From positions 1-27,397 of the IMG/VR virus record IMGVR_UViG_3300036846_000208: a stretch of DNA of 27,397 nt. One strand, given 5' to 3'. Made by a program: the position numbers and the translations under genes. Shown piece after piece: positions 2,815-17,139 of this stretch. Each line of letters opens with the position of its first letter. The stretch's first letter is position 1. The notes beneath the pieces are model-generated. The model did no database searches. It was not told the origin of the DNA and saw only the letters and a list, made by a program, of their open reading frames with translations. This DNA is from a virus.

Positions 2815-3354
2815 ATGGAACGAAACAGGAAGTACCTGAACCCGCGATTGCGGAAGTTGTGGCGGTATGACCCGGAAACCGGTAACTTCCACCACTTGTT
2901 GCGGACGTGGGGGTATGCTGGGTCGATCTTGCCGGGCGACATTGCCGGTACACTAAAGGATGGTTATGTCCAACTGGGGCACGACGGCAAAACGTACCGG
3001 GCGCATATTCTGGCGTGGGTGTGGATGAAGGGAGAGTTACCACCGAAGGGTTCCGACATCGACCACAGAGACAGGAATCGTGCTCACAACAAGTGGACGA
3101 ATTTACGGTTACTGGGACGCGGCGGGAACAATTTGAACCACAATGGACCGCGCAGTGACAGTACGACCGGAGTTCGTGGAGTTTATCGTAATAGAGGTGG
3201 TAGAGCGGGAACCTTTTTTGCACGGATCACCATCGATGGTAAGATCGTTCACCTAGGTACGTATGACACCATCGAGGAAGCTGCCGAGGCGCGTCGCAGA
3301 GCGGAAGTGAAATTCTGGCGAGTACCAGTTTTAGAGGAGGCCGAAAATGCCTGA
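2815..3354 (+). CDS. HNH homing endonuclease with C-terminal AP2 DNA-binding domain
   Basis: 179 aa. The HNH core lies around residues 60-105: AHILAWVWMKGELPPKG, then DIDHRDRNRAHNKWTNLRL, with H84 and N88 and the following N96/N105-region residues in the expected metal and DNA contact positions. An AP2-like segment follows at about 116-170 (TTGVRGVYRN..., FFARITIDGKIVHLGTY, then EEAAEARRRAEVKFW). This HNH-AP2 pairing is typical of free-standing phage homing endonucleases that cut intron-less or endonuclease-less copies of neighbouring genes. It sits between the capsid gene and the gene at 3347. AGA/CGT/CGA arginine codons and TTA are more frequent than in its neighbours, suggesting separate origin. 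Its 3' end carries the ribosome binding site of the next gene and overlaps that gene by 8 bp. A hairpin covers its own start. Confidence 0.88.
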   Translation: MERNRKYLNPRLRKLWRYDPETGNFHHLLRTWGYAGSILPGDIAGTLKDGYVQLGHDGKTYRAHILAWVWMKGELPPKGSDIDHRDRNRAHNKWTNLRLLGRGGNNLNHNGPRSDSTTGVRGVYRNRGGRAGTFFARITIDGKIVHLGTYDTIEEAAEARRRAEVKFWRVPVLEEAENA

Positions 3355-9050: not shown

Positions 9051-10547
9051 ATGGCGCAAGGTTTGTCTGTCAGCCGCGTTGTTGACGTACAGGTCAATTT
9101 CTCTCCGCAGGCGATCCCGACAGCGCGGTTTGACACCTTGCTGATTATGGGTGACAGCGGTGTTGTCGATACCGGCGAGGCGATTCGCGAGTACAACACG
9201 ATCAACGACGTGGCGACCGATTTCACGACCACCGCGCCGGAATACCAAGCGGCGTTGTTGTTCTTCTCGCAGGTACCGCAGCCGAGTACCTGTTACATCG
9301 GCGCGTGGGCGAACACTGCGACCAAGGGTCGGTTGACCGGTGGGTTACTGACCAGTTTGCAGATGCTGATGTCAAACTGGACGACGGTCACCAATGGTGG
9401 GTTCAGTGTCAGTATCGACGGTGTCGCGACTCCGGTCCAGGTCAGCGGTTTGAATTTCAGCGCCGCCGCCAACCTGAACGCGGTGGCCAGTACGATCCAG
9501 GCTGCCCTACGCACCGCTGCCAGTGCCCCGACACTGACCTTTACTTGGAACGGTACCCAGTTCCTTTGCCAGAGCGGTACCAACGGTCCAACGTCATCGG
9601 TTGGGTTCTTTGGTGTACCGACCGGTGGTGGCACCGATATCTCGGCGCAGTTGATGATGACCAGCGCCACGGCGATCCGCAGCGTGGCCGGTATCGCAAC
9701 CGAAACCCCGGTGGCGGCTGTCGTGCGTGTTGATGGGCGCGGCTGGTACGCGGTGACTTTCGCCGCGTCGCGGGTACTGACCGACATCGAGCATATGGCG
9801 ATCTCGGCCTATATCGAGGCTGCCAGTGACAAGCATATGTACGGGATCACCACCAACGAGCAAACCTGTCTCGACCCGGCGAATGTCACTGATATTGGGT
9901 CACAGGCGATGTTGGCCGACTATATGCGGACGGTGATCCAGTGGTCACTGTACAGCCCCCACGCCATCTGTAGTTTCTTTGGCCGGGCCTTGACCGTGAA
10001 CTTTGAAGGGTCCAATACCACCTTGACCATGAAGTTCAAGGTGGAACCGGGTGCCACGCCCGAAGTGCTTTCCGGGTCGAACGCGACGACACTCGCGGCT
10101 AAACGGATCAATGTCTACATCCAGTACAACAATGGCGCGGCGATCACCCAGGAAGGCGTCATGTCGGGCCGGGCGTATTTTGACGAGATGCACGGCTTGG
10201 ATTGGTTGAGTAACCGGATACAGAACGACTTGTTCAATGTGCTCTATACGTCACCAAAGATACCGCAGACCAACCCCGGTGTGCATGTTCTGGTGACAAC
10301 CTGTGACGCCTCGTTGGCACAGGGGGTACAGAACGGATTGATCGCGCCCGGTGTGTGGAACGCGCCGGGTTTTGGTGAGCTTCATCAGGGAGACACTCTG
10401 CATAACGGGTTCTATACCTTCGCCAACAATGTTGACACGCAGTCACAGGCGGATCGTGAATCCCGTATTGCACCGCTGATCCAGATCGCCACCAAGTTGG
10501 CCGGTGCCATCCATTTTGTCGACGTGTTGATCAACGTGAACAGGTGA
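9051..10547 (+). CDS. Contractile tail sheath protein, DUF3383 family
   Basis: 498 aa, with strong ribosome binding site TAGGAGGG. The N-terminus VVDVQVNFSPQAIPTARFDT with LLIMGDSGVVDTGEAIREY and NDVATDFTTTAPEYQAALLF is diagnostic for DUF3383 sheath-type proteins. Central YIEAASDKHMYGITTNEQTC and the C-terminal GLDWLSNRIQNDLFNVLYTS helix followed by TPG-type loops also agree. It forms the contractile outer tube and is the main evidence that this is a myovirus-type particle. The gene is followed by an endonuclease/tRNA insertion before the tube gene. Confidence 0.88.
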   Translation: MAQGLSVSRVVDVQVNFSPQAIPTARFDTLLIMGDSGVVDTGEAIREYNTINDVATDFTTTAPEYQAALLFFSQVPQPSTCYIGAWANTATKGRLTGGLLTSLQMLMSNWTTVTNGGFSVSIDGVATPVQVSGLNFSAAANLNAVASTIQAALRTAASAPTLTFTWNGTQFLCQSGTNGPTSSVGFFGVPTGGGTDISAQLMMTSATAIRSVAGIATETPVAAVVRVDGRGWYAVTFAASRVLTDIEHMAISAYIEAASDKHMYGITTNEQTCLDPANVTDIGSQAMLADYMRTVIQWSLYSPHAICSFFGRALTVNFEGSNTTLTMKFKVEPGATPEVLSGSNATTLAAKRINVYIQYNNGAAITQEGVMSGRAYFDEMHGLDWLSNRIQNDLFNVLYTSPKIPQTNPGVHVLVTTCDASLAQGVQNGLIAPGVWNAPGFGELHQGDTLHNGFYTFANNVDTQSQADRESRIAPLIQIATKLAGAIHFVDVLINVNR

Positions 10548-11647: not shown

Positions 11648-12121
11648 ATGGCGACGTACAGTTTCAATGACAATATGTGCGCGATTGCCGGACCCAACGG
11701 TTCCTTCAACCTGGGTTACGGATCGTGTAACTCCGAAGGCGGTATCTCGGTGAACATGGTTGAAGACAAATCGACCATGACTATTGGGGCGGATGGGTGT
11801 GTCATGCACTCGCTGCATTCCGGTAAGGGCGCGACGGTCACTGTCCGCTTGCTGAAGACCAGCCCGACCAATGCGTTGCTGTCACAGATGTACGCGAATG
11901 ATACGGGCACTGCCGGGAACCCCGCCGGTACTGCCAATCACGGACAGAACCAGATCAGTATCCGTGACTTGCAGCGCAACGATGTTATTACCTGTCAACA
12001 GTGCGCGTTCGCGAAATTTCCCGATGTCACTTACGCGAAAGAGGGTGGCGAAATGGTGTGGACGTTCCATGCCGGTGTCGTTGACTTCATCCTTGGCACG
12101 GGACTCGCCGTCGCGTTCTGA
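11648..12121 (+). CDS. Tail tube protein, DUF3277 type
   Basis: 157 aa, with the AGGAGGGTGACAG ribosome binding site. The pattern TYSFNDNMCAIAGPNGSFNLG, then GGISVNMVEDKSTMTIGADG with VMHSLHSGKGATVTVRLLKTS, ALLSQMY, DLQRNDVITCQQCAFAKFPD and the final WTFHAGVVDFILG fits DUF3277 tube proteins, which pair with DUF3383 sheaths. It forms the inner tube through which DNA passes. The length is normal. Confidence 0.85.
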   Translation: MATYSFNDNMCAIAGPNGSFNLGYGSCNSEGGISVNMVEDKSTMTIGADGCVMHSLHSGKGATVTVRLLKTSPTNALLSQMYANDTGTAGNPAGTANHGQNQISIRDLQRNDVITCQQCAFAKFPDVTYAKEGGEMVWTFHAGVVDFILGTGLAVAF

Positions 12122-12145
12122 CATTAGTCACAAGGGAGGGTGACA

Positions 12146-12607
12146 ATGGAAGAACTAGAGATCAACGATGTCTGGTACCGCACCGGGAAACTCGACGCGT
12201 TCAAGCAGTTTCACCTGTTCCGCAAGCTGATGCCATTGTTTAGCGGGATGGGTGAGACTGCGGCGTCACAGGTTGCGGCGGCGGCACAGGCGGCGGGCGC
12301 ATCGGAGGAACTGGTGCGCTGGTCGTCACTCGGTCCTATCGCCCAAGCGGTCGCCGACATGTCACAACAGGACAGTGAGTTTATCATCAAGACCTGTCTT
12401 GCCGTGTGTACCCGCAAGAACCCGGTGGGGCAGTGGGTCCGTCTGGCGACACCGGCTGGTGACCTGATGTTCGAAGACATCGATCTGACGATCATGCTGC
12501 AACTGTCGTTTGCGGTGATCCAGGACAACCTTGCGCCTTTTTTTCCAGGCCGCTCCCTCAACGGTTCGGGAGCCGAGGTGGCCCAAGTATCGAATCCGCA
12601 GACATGA
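12146..12607 (+). CDS. Tail assembly chaperone (upstream frame)
   Basis: 153 aa from ATG at 12146 (the GTG at 12140 lies within the GGGAGGG ribosome binding site). It is a helical protein with VWYRTGKLDAFKQFHLFRKL, an Ala-rich centre, EFIIKTCLAVCTRKN, WVRLATPAGDLMFEDIDLTI and MLQLSFAVIQDNLAPFF. Placement between tube and tape measure is that of the tail assembly chaperone (lambda gpG analogue). The codons CCT TTT TTT at 12536-12544 form a T TTT TTT slippery heptamer; a -1 shift there joins this protein to the gene at 12604, giving about 212 residues. Confidence 0.78.
   Translation: MEELEINDVWYRTGKLDAFKQFHLFRKLMPLFSGMGETAASQVAAAAQAAGASEELVRWSSLGPIAQAVADMSQQDSEFIIKTCLAVCTRKNPVGQWVRLATPAGDLMFEDIDLTIMLQLSFAVIQDNLAPFFPGRSLNGSGAEVAQVSNPQT
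12538..12544 (+). promoter_or_regulatory. Programmed -1 frameshift site, T TTT TTT
   Basis: Seven Ts arranged as X XXY YYZ relative to the chaperone frame, in an otherwise GC-rich gene. From 12544 the -1 frame is open for 20 codons to the ATG at 12604 and is in frame with the downstream gene. Chaperone G/GT-type frameshifting is widely conserved in tailed phages, so this fits the known arrangement. I did not identify a clear downstream pseudoknot by eye. Confidence 0.72.
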
Positions 12608-12783
12608 CGGATGGCGAGTACTGGCTAATGCGCCCGGTACTCGAAGGGATGTGTCACTACGAATCGTTGAAGAACTGCGCATTGGATTTGTCAGACGTGG
12701 CGCGGATGAACGAGGCGATAGATGTGCGCAACGAAAACCGCGCGCGTGTCGAAGACGTGATGGAAGCAGAACGGAACCGGTGA
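12604..12783 (+). CDS. Tail assembly chaperone, downstream (-1 frame) part; DUF6889-like
   Basis: 59 aa if started at the ATG at 12604, which overlaps the chaperone stop (ATGA). The same frame extends 20 codons upstream to the slippery site and probably is translated mainly as the C-terminal part of a fusion. The sequence DGEYWLMRPVLEGMCHYESLK, then DLSDVARMNEAIDVRNEN resembles small proteins (DUF6889-type) found in this position. The T-type domain of such chaperones binds the tape measure or tube. The tape measure gene starts one base after its stop. Confidence 0.75.
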   Translation: MTDGEYWLMRPVLEGMCHYESLKNCALDLSDVARMNEAIDVRNENRARVEDVMEAERNR

Positions 12784-12784
12784 C

Positions 12785-15532
12785 ATGGCTGAAAGCGTCC
12801 TAGAGTCATTTGTCATCAAGCTTGGTTACCAGATTGACCAAGCGAGCGCGAAGCGTTTCATCACCACGATCACTGACGGTCTAAAGGGCGTCCTGGAGTT
12901 CTCAGGCGCGATCATGGGGATGGCGGTCGCGGCAGAGGAAGCCGTGCGCCGTACCGCTGCCCAGATGGCGCGGCTGTCGTTTGCCGCCACGATGGGCGGT
13001 ACCACGGTCAACAAGTTACGGGAGGTAGGCTACGCTGTCGAAGCGGTCGGTGGAAGTTACCAAGACCTTATTGGCGCACAGGTATCACTGAACCAGAAAC
13101 TGACCGAAGCCCCGTGGATGAAGGGCATGCTGCACTCGATGCTGCACGGTCACTCGATGGACATGGACGGTATCATCAAGCGGTACCACGAACTGTCGTC
13201 TGGCCCGCTGGGTGAAGCCTCCGCTGCGGCGGTGAACTTCTCCCGCGTCATGCGGGAACAGTACGGCGTCAATATGCAGATTGCCGAACAGTCGCACCGT
13301 CATTGGAAGGAATTCGCCGACGTACAGGAACACAATAGACAAGTTACCATGCTGTTCCGCAAGGAGATGGATCAGGCCGAGGCGAACTCGGTCAAGATGC
13401 AGTCTTCGTGGACAAAGCTGGGTTTCACCGTTGACACTATGTGGAAGAGTGTCACCGGGGGTTTGTCGGGTATCCTGTCGCATGTCTTTGATAAGTTTGA
13501 TGAGTGGTTACAGACGAGCGCGCCTGAAATCAACAAGTTTATGGAGGAACTCAATCCTCTCATTGACCAGATCACGACCGACATCCTGAACTGGATGGAT
13601 GACATAGTCAAACACCCGGAGAAGGTCAAAAAGGCGTGGGACGATGTCAAAGCTTTTGTGACTAACACCTGGGATAACCTCAAACAAATTTATCAGGTGA
13701 TGCATGATGCTGTTTGTGCGCTGGCTGGTGCCTTTCATTGGTTGAGTGAGAAAGTCGGTGGTGACGCTAATGCCGCCATAATCTTGTTTTTAGCGTATAT
13801 GGGAAGATACGCGATAATTGATACATTCGCCAAAGCGGTTGGTGGGTTGGCTAGCAGTTTATTCGGTGTCGCGACTCAGGGTGCCGCTGCCAACGGTATT
13901 CTCCGCACGATGGGCGGGTTGCTGATGGCGGGCGGCGGTATCGGTGCCGGTATCGTTGGTTTGGGCGCTGTTATGGCGTTGTTTTATAGTACCAAAGATT
14001 GGATGAAGAAGGTTGCCCCGATTAGTCACTCCGGTCCTGTAGAGAACCGCCCGAACTATTCAGACAAGCCTTGGTACGAACGGATATTTGGAATAGTACC
14101 CGGTAGTCACGAAAGTACCTATCATCGTGGTGGTAAACCGCCGGGGATGCAGCAAGGCGGTATTGTTCCGATTAACGCCCATGCGGGCGAGATGGTGTTA
14201 CCGTCACAGATTAGTACAGGGCTACAGTCCCTTTTTATGAGTGGTGGGCTTGGTGACTCGATGGAAGATTTGAGTCACTGGTTGATGAATGACTCTTCGT
14301 TTCAGCCTTTTGTCACATTTGCGACGGAAGTTTACGACAAGCTGACCGACGCGTTTGAGGAAGCCCTTGTTCGGGTTGGTGGTACCGGCGGCGGCGCTGG
14401 TGGTGGCGCTGGCGGCGATGGTGGCGGTGCATCTCCTGATGGTGGTGGTGCGACACCTGATCAGGGTGGACCGGCGGGAGCGGGGGCGATATCACAAAAA
14501 GCTGCTGAGCTAATCTCGCGGGCTGAAGGAACATTCACCAAAGCTGGTATTAATTACAACGCTATGTACAGCGGTGAGATGAAAGGACTCACCGAAATGA
14601 CAATAGCTAAGGTTATGGAGTATCAAAGGCAGCATATGGGGAGTCACACACCGATAGGTGCGTTCCAGATGACGAGGGATACGATAGCGGACACAATTAA
14701 GGCGCTCCACCTCGATCCCGAAACGACCAAGTTCAGCCCCGAAGTCCAACGTCAGTTGGCGGGGTACCTTTTGCAGCATCGCGGTATCCAGCCGTGGACG
14801 AATCAACACCCCGAACTCATGCGGCAAGTGAAGGAGATGGGGGCGGGTGCTTTTGAGACACAAGGGACTGGTGGCGGTGGTAGTGTCGGCAAATTTGGTA
14901 AGGGTAGTAGCACCGCGCTTTTGGAGATCATGAACCAAGCCTTCACGGCGGCGTTACCGTCTGGGTATAGCGTGAGACAGACATCCGGCGCGCGACCCGG
15001 CGGTGACCCATCTTCGGGTCACTATCGCGGTAAAGCTGCGGACTTTGAGATTATTGGTCCCGATGGCAAGGCGATCCCCAACGAAGGGGCTGATCGTTCC
15101 GGTTTATATCGTAAGGTCGCCATTCAAGCGTATCTCGCCGCGATGCAGAAGTATGGGCCGGAAATGGCCAAGCAATTGGGTTGGGGCGGTCACTTTGGTA
15201 GTCACATTCACGGCGGCGGTGCCGCCGATTTGATGCACTTCGATTGGTTGTTTAAAGGGATACGCGGTAAGATCGGAAATATGTATCAGGAGTATAATGA
15301 GGCACTAAAACTGTTTCAGACACAGAGACAGAATATGCAGGAAACCGTCCGACGTGACCAAAGCGATATCAAATATGGTACCGGTTTGAAGTCTCCAACT
15401 GTCGATAACAGTACCAACGTAACAAATATCCACGGTGTGACCGATCCACACGGGGTGGCTCGCGTGACGGCGGATTTGGGTGACAGGCGGTCGTCTTATC
15501 GTAAGCAGAACCAGAGGACGTATGTGTCATGA
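12785..15532 (+). CDS. Tape measure protein with lambda-endolysin-like and M15 peptidase-like domains
   Basis: 915 aa. Residues 1-310 are largely helical and include coiled-coil candidates. About 320-405 is hydrophobic and Gly/Ala-rich (ANAAIILFLAYMGRYAIID, LLMAGGGIGAGIVGLGAVMA), with likely membrane-inserting segments. About 530-568 is a Gly-rich linker. About 569-690 follows the lambda endolysin (GH104-like) pattern: LISRAEGT with candidate catalytic E581, YNAMYSGEM, PIGAFQ (623-628), then KFSPEVQRQLAGYLLQHRG. About 700-830 has the M15 (VanY / T5 endolysin type) signature: SGHYRGKAADF with H746 and D753 as metal ligands, and DLMHFDW with D815 as general base and H818 as ligand. The spacing H-x6-D and D-x2-H matches M15C peptidases. 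The protein sets tail length and probably degrades peptidoglycan during DNA entry. Composition becomes more AT-rich after about 13680, hinting at recombination. Confidence 0.85.
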   Translation: MAESVLESFVIKLGYQIDQASAKRFITTITDGLKGVLEFSGAIMGMAVAAEEAVRRTAAQMARLSFAATMGGTTVNKLREVGYAVEAVGGSYQDLIGAQVSLNQKLTEAPWMKGMLHSMLHGHSMDMDGIIKRYHELSSGPLGEASAAAVNFSRVMREQYGVNMQIAEQSHRHWKEFADVQEHNRQVTMLFRKEMDQAEANSVKMQSSWTKLGFTVDTMWKSVTGGLSGILSHVFDKFDEWLQTSAPEINKFMEELNPLIDQITTDILNWMDDIVKHPEKVKKAWDDVKAFVTNTWDNLKQIYQVMHDAVCALAGAFHWLSEKVGGDANAAIILFLAYMGRYAIIDTFAKAVGGLASSLFGVATQGAAANGILRTMGGLLMAGGGIGAGIVGLGAVMALFYSTKDWMKKVAPISHSGPVENRPNYSDKPWYERIFGIVPGSHESTYHRGGKPPGMQQGGIVPINAHAGEMVLPSQISTGLQSLFMSGGLGDSMEDLSHWLMNDSSFQPFVTFATEVYDKLTDAFEEALVRVGGTGGGAGGGAGGDGGGASPDGGGATPDQGGPAGAGAISQKAAELISRAEGTFTKAGINYNAMYSGEMKGLTEMTIAKVMEYQRQHMGSHTPIGAFQMTRDTIADTIKALHLDPETTKFSPEVQRQLAGYLLQHRGIQPWTNQHPELMRQVKEMGAGAFETQGTGGGGSVGKFGKGSSTALLEIMNQAFTAALPSGYSVRQTSGARPGGDPSSGHYRGKAADFEIIGPDGKAIPNEGADRSGLYRKVAIQAYLAAMQKYGPEMAKQLGWGGHFGSHIHGGGAADLMHFDWLFKGIRGKIGNMYQEYNEALKLFQTQRQNMQETVRRDQSDIKYGTGLKSPTVDNSTNVTNIHGVTDPHGVARVTADLGDRRSSYRKQNQRTYVS

Positions 15533-17139
15533 GTGACCCCCGCGATCTGGTTCCTCCACCCGGCGGGATTGGGGGTGGAGGCGGTGATACTTCTAACCTG
15601 CCCTCTGGTGTCGGTGGTGGGGCTGATCTTAGTCAGTATGCTAAAGCTAGCACTGACTTGTCGCTGGACAGCGACTTTAAATCCAAAAGTAGTGACAGGT
15701 TTCAATCGAGTGACTTGAGCCAGCCGTCGAGCGAAGCGGAATCTTGGCGCAGCGTGTCAGACCAGATGGAGCCATCGGATGGTGCCGGTTCCGGTAACAT
15801 CGAGAAGGAGTCAAAGCACAACGATGCGCAGTGGATTCGTAAGTTCAGTCTCGTCGTGTACAAGAGCGGTGTCACCGACATTGGTGGTGGCCAGGATATC
15901 GGTGCTACCGGTGATTATGGTGGTGGTGGGGATGCCCGTAGGCTAGACCTGTCCCGCGCTTTCCTGCCACGCGCCCGGCGTGGTAATGTTATCCCGTTCC
16001 GCCGCCCCGGCTTGCGCGACGATCCGGCGGTGTCGAGTACCGATAGCGGCGGTAACGCCCCGGCACCAGAACAAGAACAGGGACACAGTGAACCGGGCCT
16101 CGACCTGTCCAATCTACGCTGCAACTTTAGTATCCAAAAAACCACAAACAGCACGCCAAACGTCTTCTATGCGCGTGTCTATAATCTCGCGCCAGAGACA
16201 CTTGCCAAGGTAATCGAGTTCACCCGTGTACGGGTTCTGGCCGGGTACAAATACGCCAACTACGGATTGGTCTTTGATGGCACCGTGGTGCAGTACCGGC
16301 GCGGCAAAGAGAACCCGGTTGACAGCTATATCGAGATACACGCGGCTGACGGCAGGACGATCAACGACGCGACGATAGCGACATCGTTTCCGAAGGATAG
16401 TACCAAAGCGGATATCTACAAAAAGCTCCAGGAGGAGCGGCTGGCGTTGGATAAGACCGAGAAGGTAGGCACCACCGACTATAAGCAGTGGCAGGACAAG
16501 ATTCAGCGTATGCGGGTTCTCGCGGGTCATGTCCGTAACTATGAGCGCCAGCTTCATCAGGAAGACGATATGCACGGCTGGACGGAGAACGGCGAGTATG
16601 TGACAATTCTGAAGACCGCGTATCTTGACAGTGAGGCGGTGGTCTTGTCACCAAAAACCGGATTGGTCGGTCAGCCGGAAGTGACACCGCAGGGTATCCA
16701 GATCAAGTGTCTGTTGAACCCCCGGCTCAAGCTTGGCGGTTTGGTAAAGCTTGACACTAACATTATATCGGGTGTCGCTTACACGCCCGGCACCGCAAGC
16801 AAGACCGATGCAAACGGTCAGGTGATCCCAGGCGATCCGACCGGCGGTATGATCGAGGATGAAAACCTTCAGATGGCGAATTTTGGCGGGCAGTTGGAAA
16901 CCGCGTATACGTCACCAAAGGGTCGGTACAAGATACTCCTGATGACGATCTCCGGTGACACAAGAGGGAACCCGTGGTACTGCGATCTTGTCTGTGTTGC
17001 CTTGGACAGTAAAAATAGGGCGATCTTGGGAACCAACCAGTCCAACGCCTTCAACCGCAGGGCTTCGCAACAGGCGCGAGGGGATACTGAAGTCGCACCG
17101 ACAAGGAGGGTGATCGATGGCCGGTTCCGGCGGCGGTAA
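15529..17139 (+). CDS. Baseplate hub protein
   Basis: 536 aa, start ATG overlapping the tape measure stop. The first roughly 100 residues are Gly/Ser/Asp-rich and probably disordered. A second Gly-rich insert (DIGGGQDIGATGDYGGGGD) interrupts the start of the hub fold after WIRKFSLVVYKSG. The hub pattern resumes at LDLSNLRCNFSIQKTTNSTP, NVFYARVYNLAPETLAKVI, VRVLAGYKYANYGLVFDGTV and DSYIEIHAADGRTI, a typical gp27/P2-gpD-like order. The C-terminus carries a beta domain (GIQIKCLLNPRLKLGGLVKL, GRYKILLMTISGDTRGNPWY). It sits at the tail tip beneath the tube. Confidence 0.75.
   Translation: MSDPRDLVPPPGGIGGGGGDTSNLPSGVGGGADLSQYAKASTDLSLDSDFKSKSSDRFQSSDLSQPSSEAESWRSVSDQMEPSDGAGSGNIEKESKHNDAQWIRKFSLVVYKSGVTDIGGGQDIGATGDYGGGGDARRLDLSRAFLPRARRGNVIPFRRPGLRDDPAVSSTDSGGNAPAPEQEQGHSEPGLDLSNLRCNFSIQKTTNSTPNVFYARVYNLAPETLAKVIEFTRVRVLAGYKYANYGLVFDGTVVQYRRGKENPVDSYIEIHAADGRTINDATIATSFPKDSTKADIYKKLQEERLALDKTEKVGTTDYKQWQDKIQRMRVLAGHVRNYERQLHQEDDMHGWTENGEYVTILKTAYLDSEAVVLSPKTGLVGQPEVTPQGIQIKCLLNPRLKLGGLVKLDTNIISGVAYTPGTASKTDANGQVIPGDPTGGMIEDENLQMANFGGQLETAYTSPKGRYKILLMTISGDTRGNPWYCDLVCVALDSKNRAILGTNQSNAFNRRASQQARGDTEVAPTRRVIDGRFRRR

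Follow-up and report, generated by a model that had tools for sequence, protein, structure and literature searches.

A contractile-tail tape measure protein carrying two different predicted peptidoglycan-degrading domains

Introduction

Wall-degrading domains in phage tape measure proteins have been established for T5 pb2, TM4 and phiIPLA35 (PMC6116005). A two-enzyme protein, CwlP of SP-beta, has been proven biochemically, according to the works cited in PMC5380687 and PMC10653849. In 2017, it was stated that virion lysins with two lytic domains all come from phages of Gram-positive hosts (PMC5380687).

Here, we analysed a virus record of 27,397 bases (hereafter, the window), which contains a block of head and contractile-tail genes. 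The product of the gene at 12785-15532 contains two different domains predicted to cleave peptidoglycan, which places it, by homology, among the two-enzyme virion lysins.

Results

The tape measure gene and its surroundings

The reading frame at 12785-15532 (+) encodes 915 residues and is open throughout, with no stops. This long gene lies between those of the tail chaperone and the hub, and residues 1-120 of its product match the tape-measure family PHROG 12506 (E = 2e-14). The gene order of sheath, tube, chaperone, 12785-15532 and hub (Table 1) also fits a tape measure. By homology and position, these results identify the protein as a tape measure from a phage whose tail is contractile and has a sheath of the DUF3383 type.

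In the same structural block, an HNH endonuclease gene (2815-3354, +) adjoins the major head protein gene. A 59-codon reading frame (12604-12783, +) overlaps the chaperone stop codon (ATGA) and ends just upstream of the tape measure gene; a small reading frame occupies the equivalent place in Burkholderia phage BgManors32. The baseplate hub (15529-17139, +) has a long Gly/Ser/Asp-rich N-terminal extension, and its hub homology begins at residue 179.

Table 1. Coordinates of the tape measure gene, its predicted domains and the neighbouring tail genes in the window
Feature	Position	Strand	Basis
Tail sheath	9051..10547	+	PHROG 205; relatives annotated DUF3383
Probable tail tube	11648..12121	+	PHROG 280; relatives have DUF3277 here
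Tail assembly chaperone	12140..12607	+	PHROG 1688
Tail tape measure protein with both domains, 915 aa	12785..15532	+	PHROG 12506, gene order, residue check
N-terminal tape-measure region, residues 1-290; 84-98% identity to L002	12785..13654	+	
Hydrophobic middle, residues 291-470; 23-59% identity between two otherwise close relatives	13655..14194	+	Sequence, L002 comparison
Gly/Pro/Asp-rich linker, residues 531-565	14375..14479	+	Sequence
Lambda-endolysin-like (GH104-like) glycan-cleaving domain, predicted, residues 566-693	14480..14863	+	Profiles, AF2 model, HHalign
E581, candidate catalytic acid, opposite the SEGT glutamate of lambda R	14525..14527	+	Invariant in 22 relatives
GAFQ motif, residues 625-628 (lambda R: GRYQ); G and Q invariant	14657..14668	+	Alignment
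Short Gly-rich linker joining the two enzymes, residues 691-705	14855..14899	+	Sequence
M15-type (LAS-fold) zinc peptidase domain, predicted, residues 706-838	14900..15298	+	Family alignment, AF2 model, T5 alignment
H746-x6-D753, predicted zinc ligands	15020..15043	+	Invariance, T5 alignment
D815-x2-H818, predicted catalytic acid and third zinc ligand	15227..15238	+	Invariance, T5 alignment
Baseplate hub gene, overlaps tape-measure stop	15529..17139	+	PHROG 196; Pfam E217_GP41

The lambda-endolysin-like domain

For either enzyme domain, Pfam and PDB searches with the single sequence were too weak to be decisive; with the family alignments and predicted structures described below, both exceed chance. 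A mixed alignment of nine sequences gave no pattern usable for scanning the collection. For the first domain, one alignment (A2) was set aside as circular, because it included lambda R itself, and was replaced by A3, built without lambda R and without the N4-like protein, and by the wider A5, with 22 members. The A3 profile matched the lambda lysozyme structures 1am7/3d3d at E = 6e-5 and the structure 11mn, a "66 kDa protein", at E = 2e-10. The A5 profile matched 1am7 at E = 8e-6 and aligned to lambda R with an HHalign probability of 95.6. Both hallmarks of the lambda endolysin, the catalytic Glu in (S/A)EGT and the G-x-(Y/F)-Q motif, are present, and E581, G625 and Q628 are invariant across the A5 alignment.

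The AF2 model of this domain was of medium confidence (mean pLDDT 77), and its top two PDB matches were both lambda lysozyme (1am7 and 3d3d; Foldseek probability 0.99 and 0.97), with a TM-score of only about 0.5 and Foldseek E-values above 0.001. The Burkholderia phages BgManors32 and Magia, cyanophages, Agrobacterium phage Atu_ph07 and N4-like phages carry related segments in a tape measure or virion protein. The relative in cyanophage DSL-LC02 is annotated as glycoside hydrolase family 104, to which the lambda endolysin belongs.

The profiles made without lambda R, the predicted fold and the alignment agree in assigning residues 566-693 to the lambda-endolysin (GH104-like) family, as had been proposed in the first-pass annotation from E581 and the SEGT/AEGT and GAFQ/GRYQ correspondences. 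Since lambda R is a lytic transglycosylase, the same chemistry is likely for this domain by analogy.

The M15-type peptidase domain

The second domain matched M15_3 of Pfam at 17.0 bits (E = 0.007), which as a single sequence does not reach the curated cut-off of 23.2, a value that is an annotation convenience and no biological feature. Its relatives (25-43% identity) include rhizobial siphophage and prophage tape measures, several of them with Pfam TMP_2, as well as other virion proteins. In the alignment of 16 family members, H746, D753, D815 and H818 are invariant (16/16), and the M15 pattern HxxxxxxD ... (D/E)xxH is present with every residue conserved. Among the same 16 members, M15_4 was matched in seven, M15_3 in three and VanY in two, all weakly (best E 0.006-0.009), and the family profile matched VanX (1r44) in the PDB, again weakly (E = 0.91).

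The AF2 model of this domain was also of medium confidence (mean pLDDT 70), with model residues 105-114, just before D815, below 50. Most of the 20 best PDB matches of this model were Hedgehog N-terminal domains, which share the LAS/M15 fold; the E-values were weak (>0.001), and the matches were consistent. In the viral library, the model matched five phage proteins of 520-1070 residues (E <0.001, probability 1.00).

Because a literature search on the T5 endolysin residues found nothing, its active-site residues were read from the sequence itself, extracted from AY543070. They comprise H66-x6-D73 and D130-x2-H133, and in the alignment to the family profile H66, D73, D130 and H133 stand opposite H746, D753, D815 and H818, respectively. 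The local alignment score was 22.2, and 100 shuffles reached at most 17.2. The two aspartates lie 62 residues apart here versus 57 in the T5 endolysin, so that the earlier description "spacing as in T5" holds approximately.

The invariant residues, their position opposite those of T5 and the Hedgehog-type predicted fold indicate that residues 706-838 form an M15-type (LAS-fold) zinc peptidase. The M15 part of the initial "M15C-type" assignment is thus upheld, together with its four key residues, whereas subfamily C in particular is only likely, because the relatives match several M15 Pfam families, all weakly. Overall, the profile and structure-prediction searches supported both folds, and the residues named at the outset are the conserved ones: a residue check placed E581, EGT581, GAFQ625, H746, D753, D815 and H818 exactly where they had been claimed.

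Conservation of the two-enzyme cassette

Related-locus searches with single proteins identified one close relative of 12785-15532, the contig L002, which covers residues 1-838. Between L002 and the window, the lysozyme domain shows 99% amino acid identity, with 11 silent codons versus 1 changed, and the peptidase domain 97%, with 23 silent versus 4 changed. These results indicate that the two-enzyme cassette is under purifying selection. Conversely, the hydrophobic residues 291-470 show 23-59% identity, with 30 silent codons versus 100 changing ones. Silent changes dominate in the cassette and changing ones in the middle; the enzyme cassette has therefore been maintained, whereas the hydrophobic middle has been replaced or is diverging fast.

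Tape measures of phages with related sheaths

Tape measures were sampled from 17 phages whose sheaths are related to the one here, and the spread of the domains was followed with local HMMs. One recognised glycan-cutting domain, in the C-terminal half, was found in 6 of the 17: the lambda-like domain in BgManors32 and Magia, SLT in EKP1, yong1 and Erwinia Y2, and Phage_lysozyme2 in Acinetobacter MD-2021a. The other 11 contained no recognised glycan-cutting domain, and the M15 domain was found in none of the 17, indicating that a second enzyme is unusual within the DUF3383 group. Literature searches on DUF3383 tape measures and on M15 tape measures found nothing.

These six tape measures bear out, alongside T5 pb2, TM4 and phiIPLA35, the first-pass statement that tape measures with one such domain are known. 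Its further statement, that the combination of two is unusual, stands for the sampled DUF3383 phages (0/17 others) and fails in general: a domain for glycan and one for peptide cleavage already occur together in single tail or virion proteins, as exemplified by CwlP, S-CREM1 gp47, freshwater contigs with lysozyme and M23 domains, RHph_TM30 gp295 and the L022 protein described below.

A nuclease-like domain was observed in probable tape measures of Chaseviridae, where proteins in the tape-measure position match the YqaJ viral recombinase (exonuclease) domain. The match was above the cut-off in Aeromonas phage H1 (L103:9514-13089; E = 3.4e-9), and E was 0.0012 in Vibrio phage VPs20 (L102:9537-13367).

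Discussion

We consider it very probable that this tape measure carries two successive virion-associated peptidoglycan-degrading domains, which would make a hole locally through which tube and DNA could pass. During infection, the tape measure would exit the tail tube, its C-terminal part probably leading. Flexible Gly-rich linkers join the two predicted enzymes near the C-terminus, and ejection of the protein would carry both enzymes into the periplasm. There, the lambda-endolysin-like domain would cut the glycan strand between MurNAc and GlcNAc, probably by lytic transglycosylation like lambda R, and the M15 zinc peptidase would cut a stem-peptide or cross-link bond. Should the peptidase belong to M15C, this bond is probably L-Ala-D-Glu, the one cut by the T5 enzyme. 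Together, the glycan and peptide cuts would open the local hole.

The lysozyme-like domain might instead open the wall by itself, with the M15 domain acting as a trimmer of the D,D-carboxypeptidase or dipeptidase type, or persisting as a degenerate binding module, that opens no cross-links. The roughly equal and weak matches of the wider family to VanY, M15_3 and M15_4, the weak PDB match of its profile to VanX, a dipeptidase, and the sampled DUF3383 relatives that do without an M15 domain are in keeping with this explanation. However, a carboxypeptidase would be of little use in making a hole, and the domain evolves under purifying selection with its four catalytic residues invariant; we regard the explanation as unlikely.

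A role of both domains in lysis at the end of infection, with the tape measure doubling as endolysin, is very improbable, although no separate endolysin gene was recognised within the 27.4 kb fragment and "endolysin" appears among the PHROG annotations of relatives. It was rejected as the main explanation, since the fragment covers mainly structural genes and the domain sits within a structural protein, as is the case in many phages with an endolysin of their own. It is more improbable still that the second domain reflects an assembly artefact fusing two phages, as might be suspected from its closest isolate relatives, which are Rhizobium siphophages and hence of a different phage group. The independent contig L002 has the same arrangement in divergent DNA and the reading frame is open throughout, and an artefact was likewise rejected as the main explanation.

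The additional M15 module may have been acquired from a pool of tape measures common among rhizobial phages. We further propose, with more doubt than confidence, that a group of phages infecting Gram-negative bacteria added to a tape measure with one enzyme an M15 module known chiefly from tape measures of rhizobial siphophages, and that the pair became a conserved two-bond entry cassette whose evolution is uncoupled from that of the membrane-like middle; this would run counter to the 2017 statement. At the level of sequence, the window, whose host is inferred only from relatives, and the cyanophage cases contradict that statement (PMC5380687). The window would extend the short list of two-enzyme entry proteins by a contractile phage of Gram-negative type and suggests that tail proteins cutting both glycan and peptide are commoner than the literature states, a point of relevance to phage entry and to the antibacterial use of virion-derived lysins.

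Among known systems, CwlP (YomI) of the Bacillus subtilis prophage SP-beta is similar in that a muramidase domain and a domain cutting peptide cross-links share one polypeptide, which is very large and probably a tail protein (PMC5380687). It differs in its SLT-type and M23 domains, its Gram-positive host, its size of 252 kDa and its proven activity. In Synechococcus phage S-CREM1 gp47 (L006:4276-7326, 1016 aa), a domain of the same lambda-like family precedes an M15 peptidase (VanY, E = 2e-9), the order seen here, and the protein is likewise encoded next to hub genes; however, it belongs to a T4-like cyanophage, and its peptidase comes from a different M15 branch. The IMG/VR proteins L033, L043 and L056 and Synechococcus phage S-SRM01 gp41 likewise have the same lambda-like domain followed by a metallopeptidase, which in these proteins is M23. 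The 413-aa protein of L022 (L022:5953-7194) combines both families in the reverse order, with an N-terminal M15 domain and then a lambda-R-like one, and is too short to be tape-measure-sized; by its domains, it is probably another virion-associated two-enzyme lysin.

The same M15 family (33-40% identity) occurs in the tape measure of Rhizobium phages L338C/P11VFA, where it lacks a glycan-cutting partner, and in L018, where it is accompanied by Phage_lysozyme2. RHph_TM30 gp295 shows a weaker match to this M15 family, also together with Phage_lysozyme2; in both of these latter cases, the lysozyme family differs from that of the window. Conversely, the Burkholderia phages BgManors32 and Magia share with the window the DUF3383-type contractile tail and the lambda-like domain in the tape measure, but not the M15 domain.
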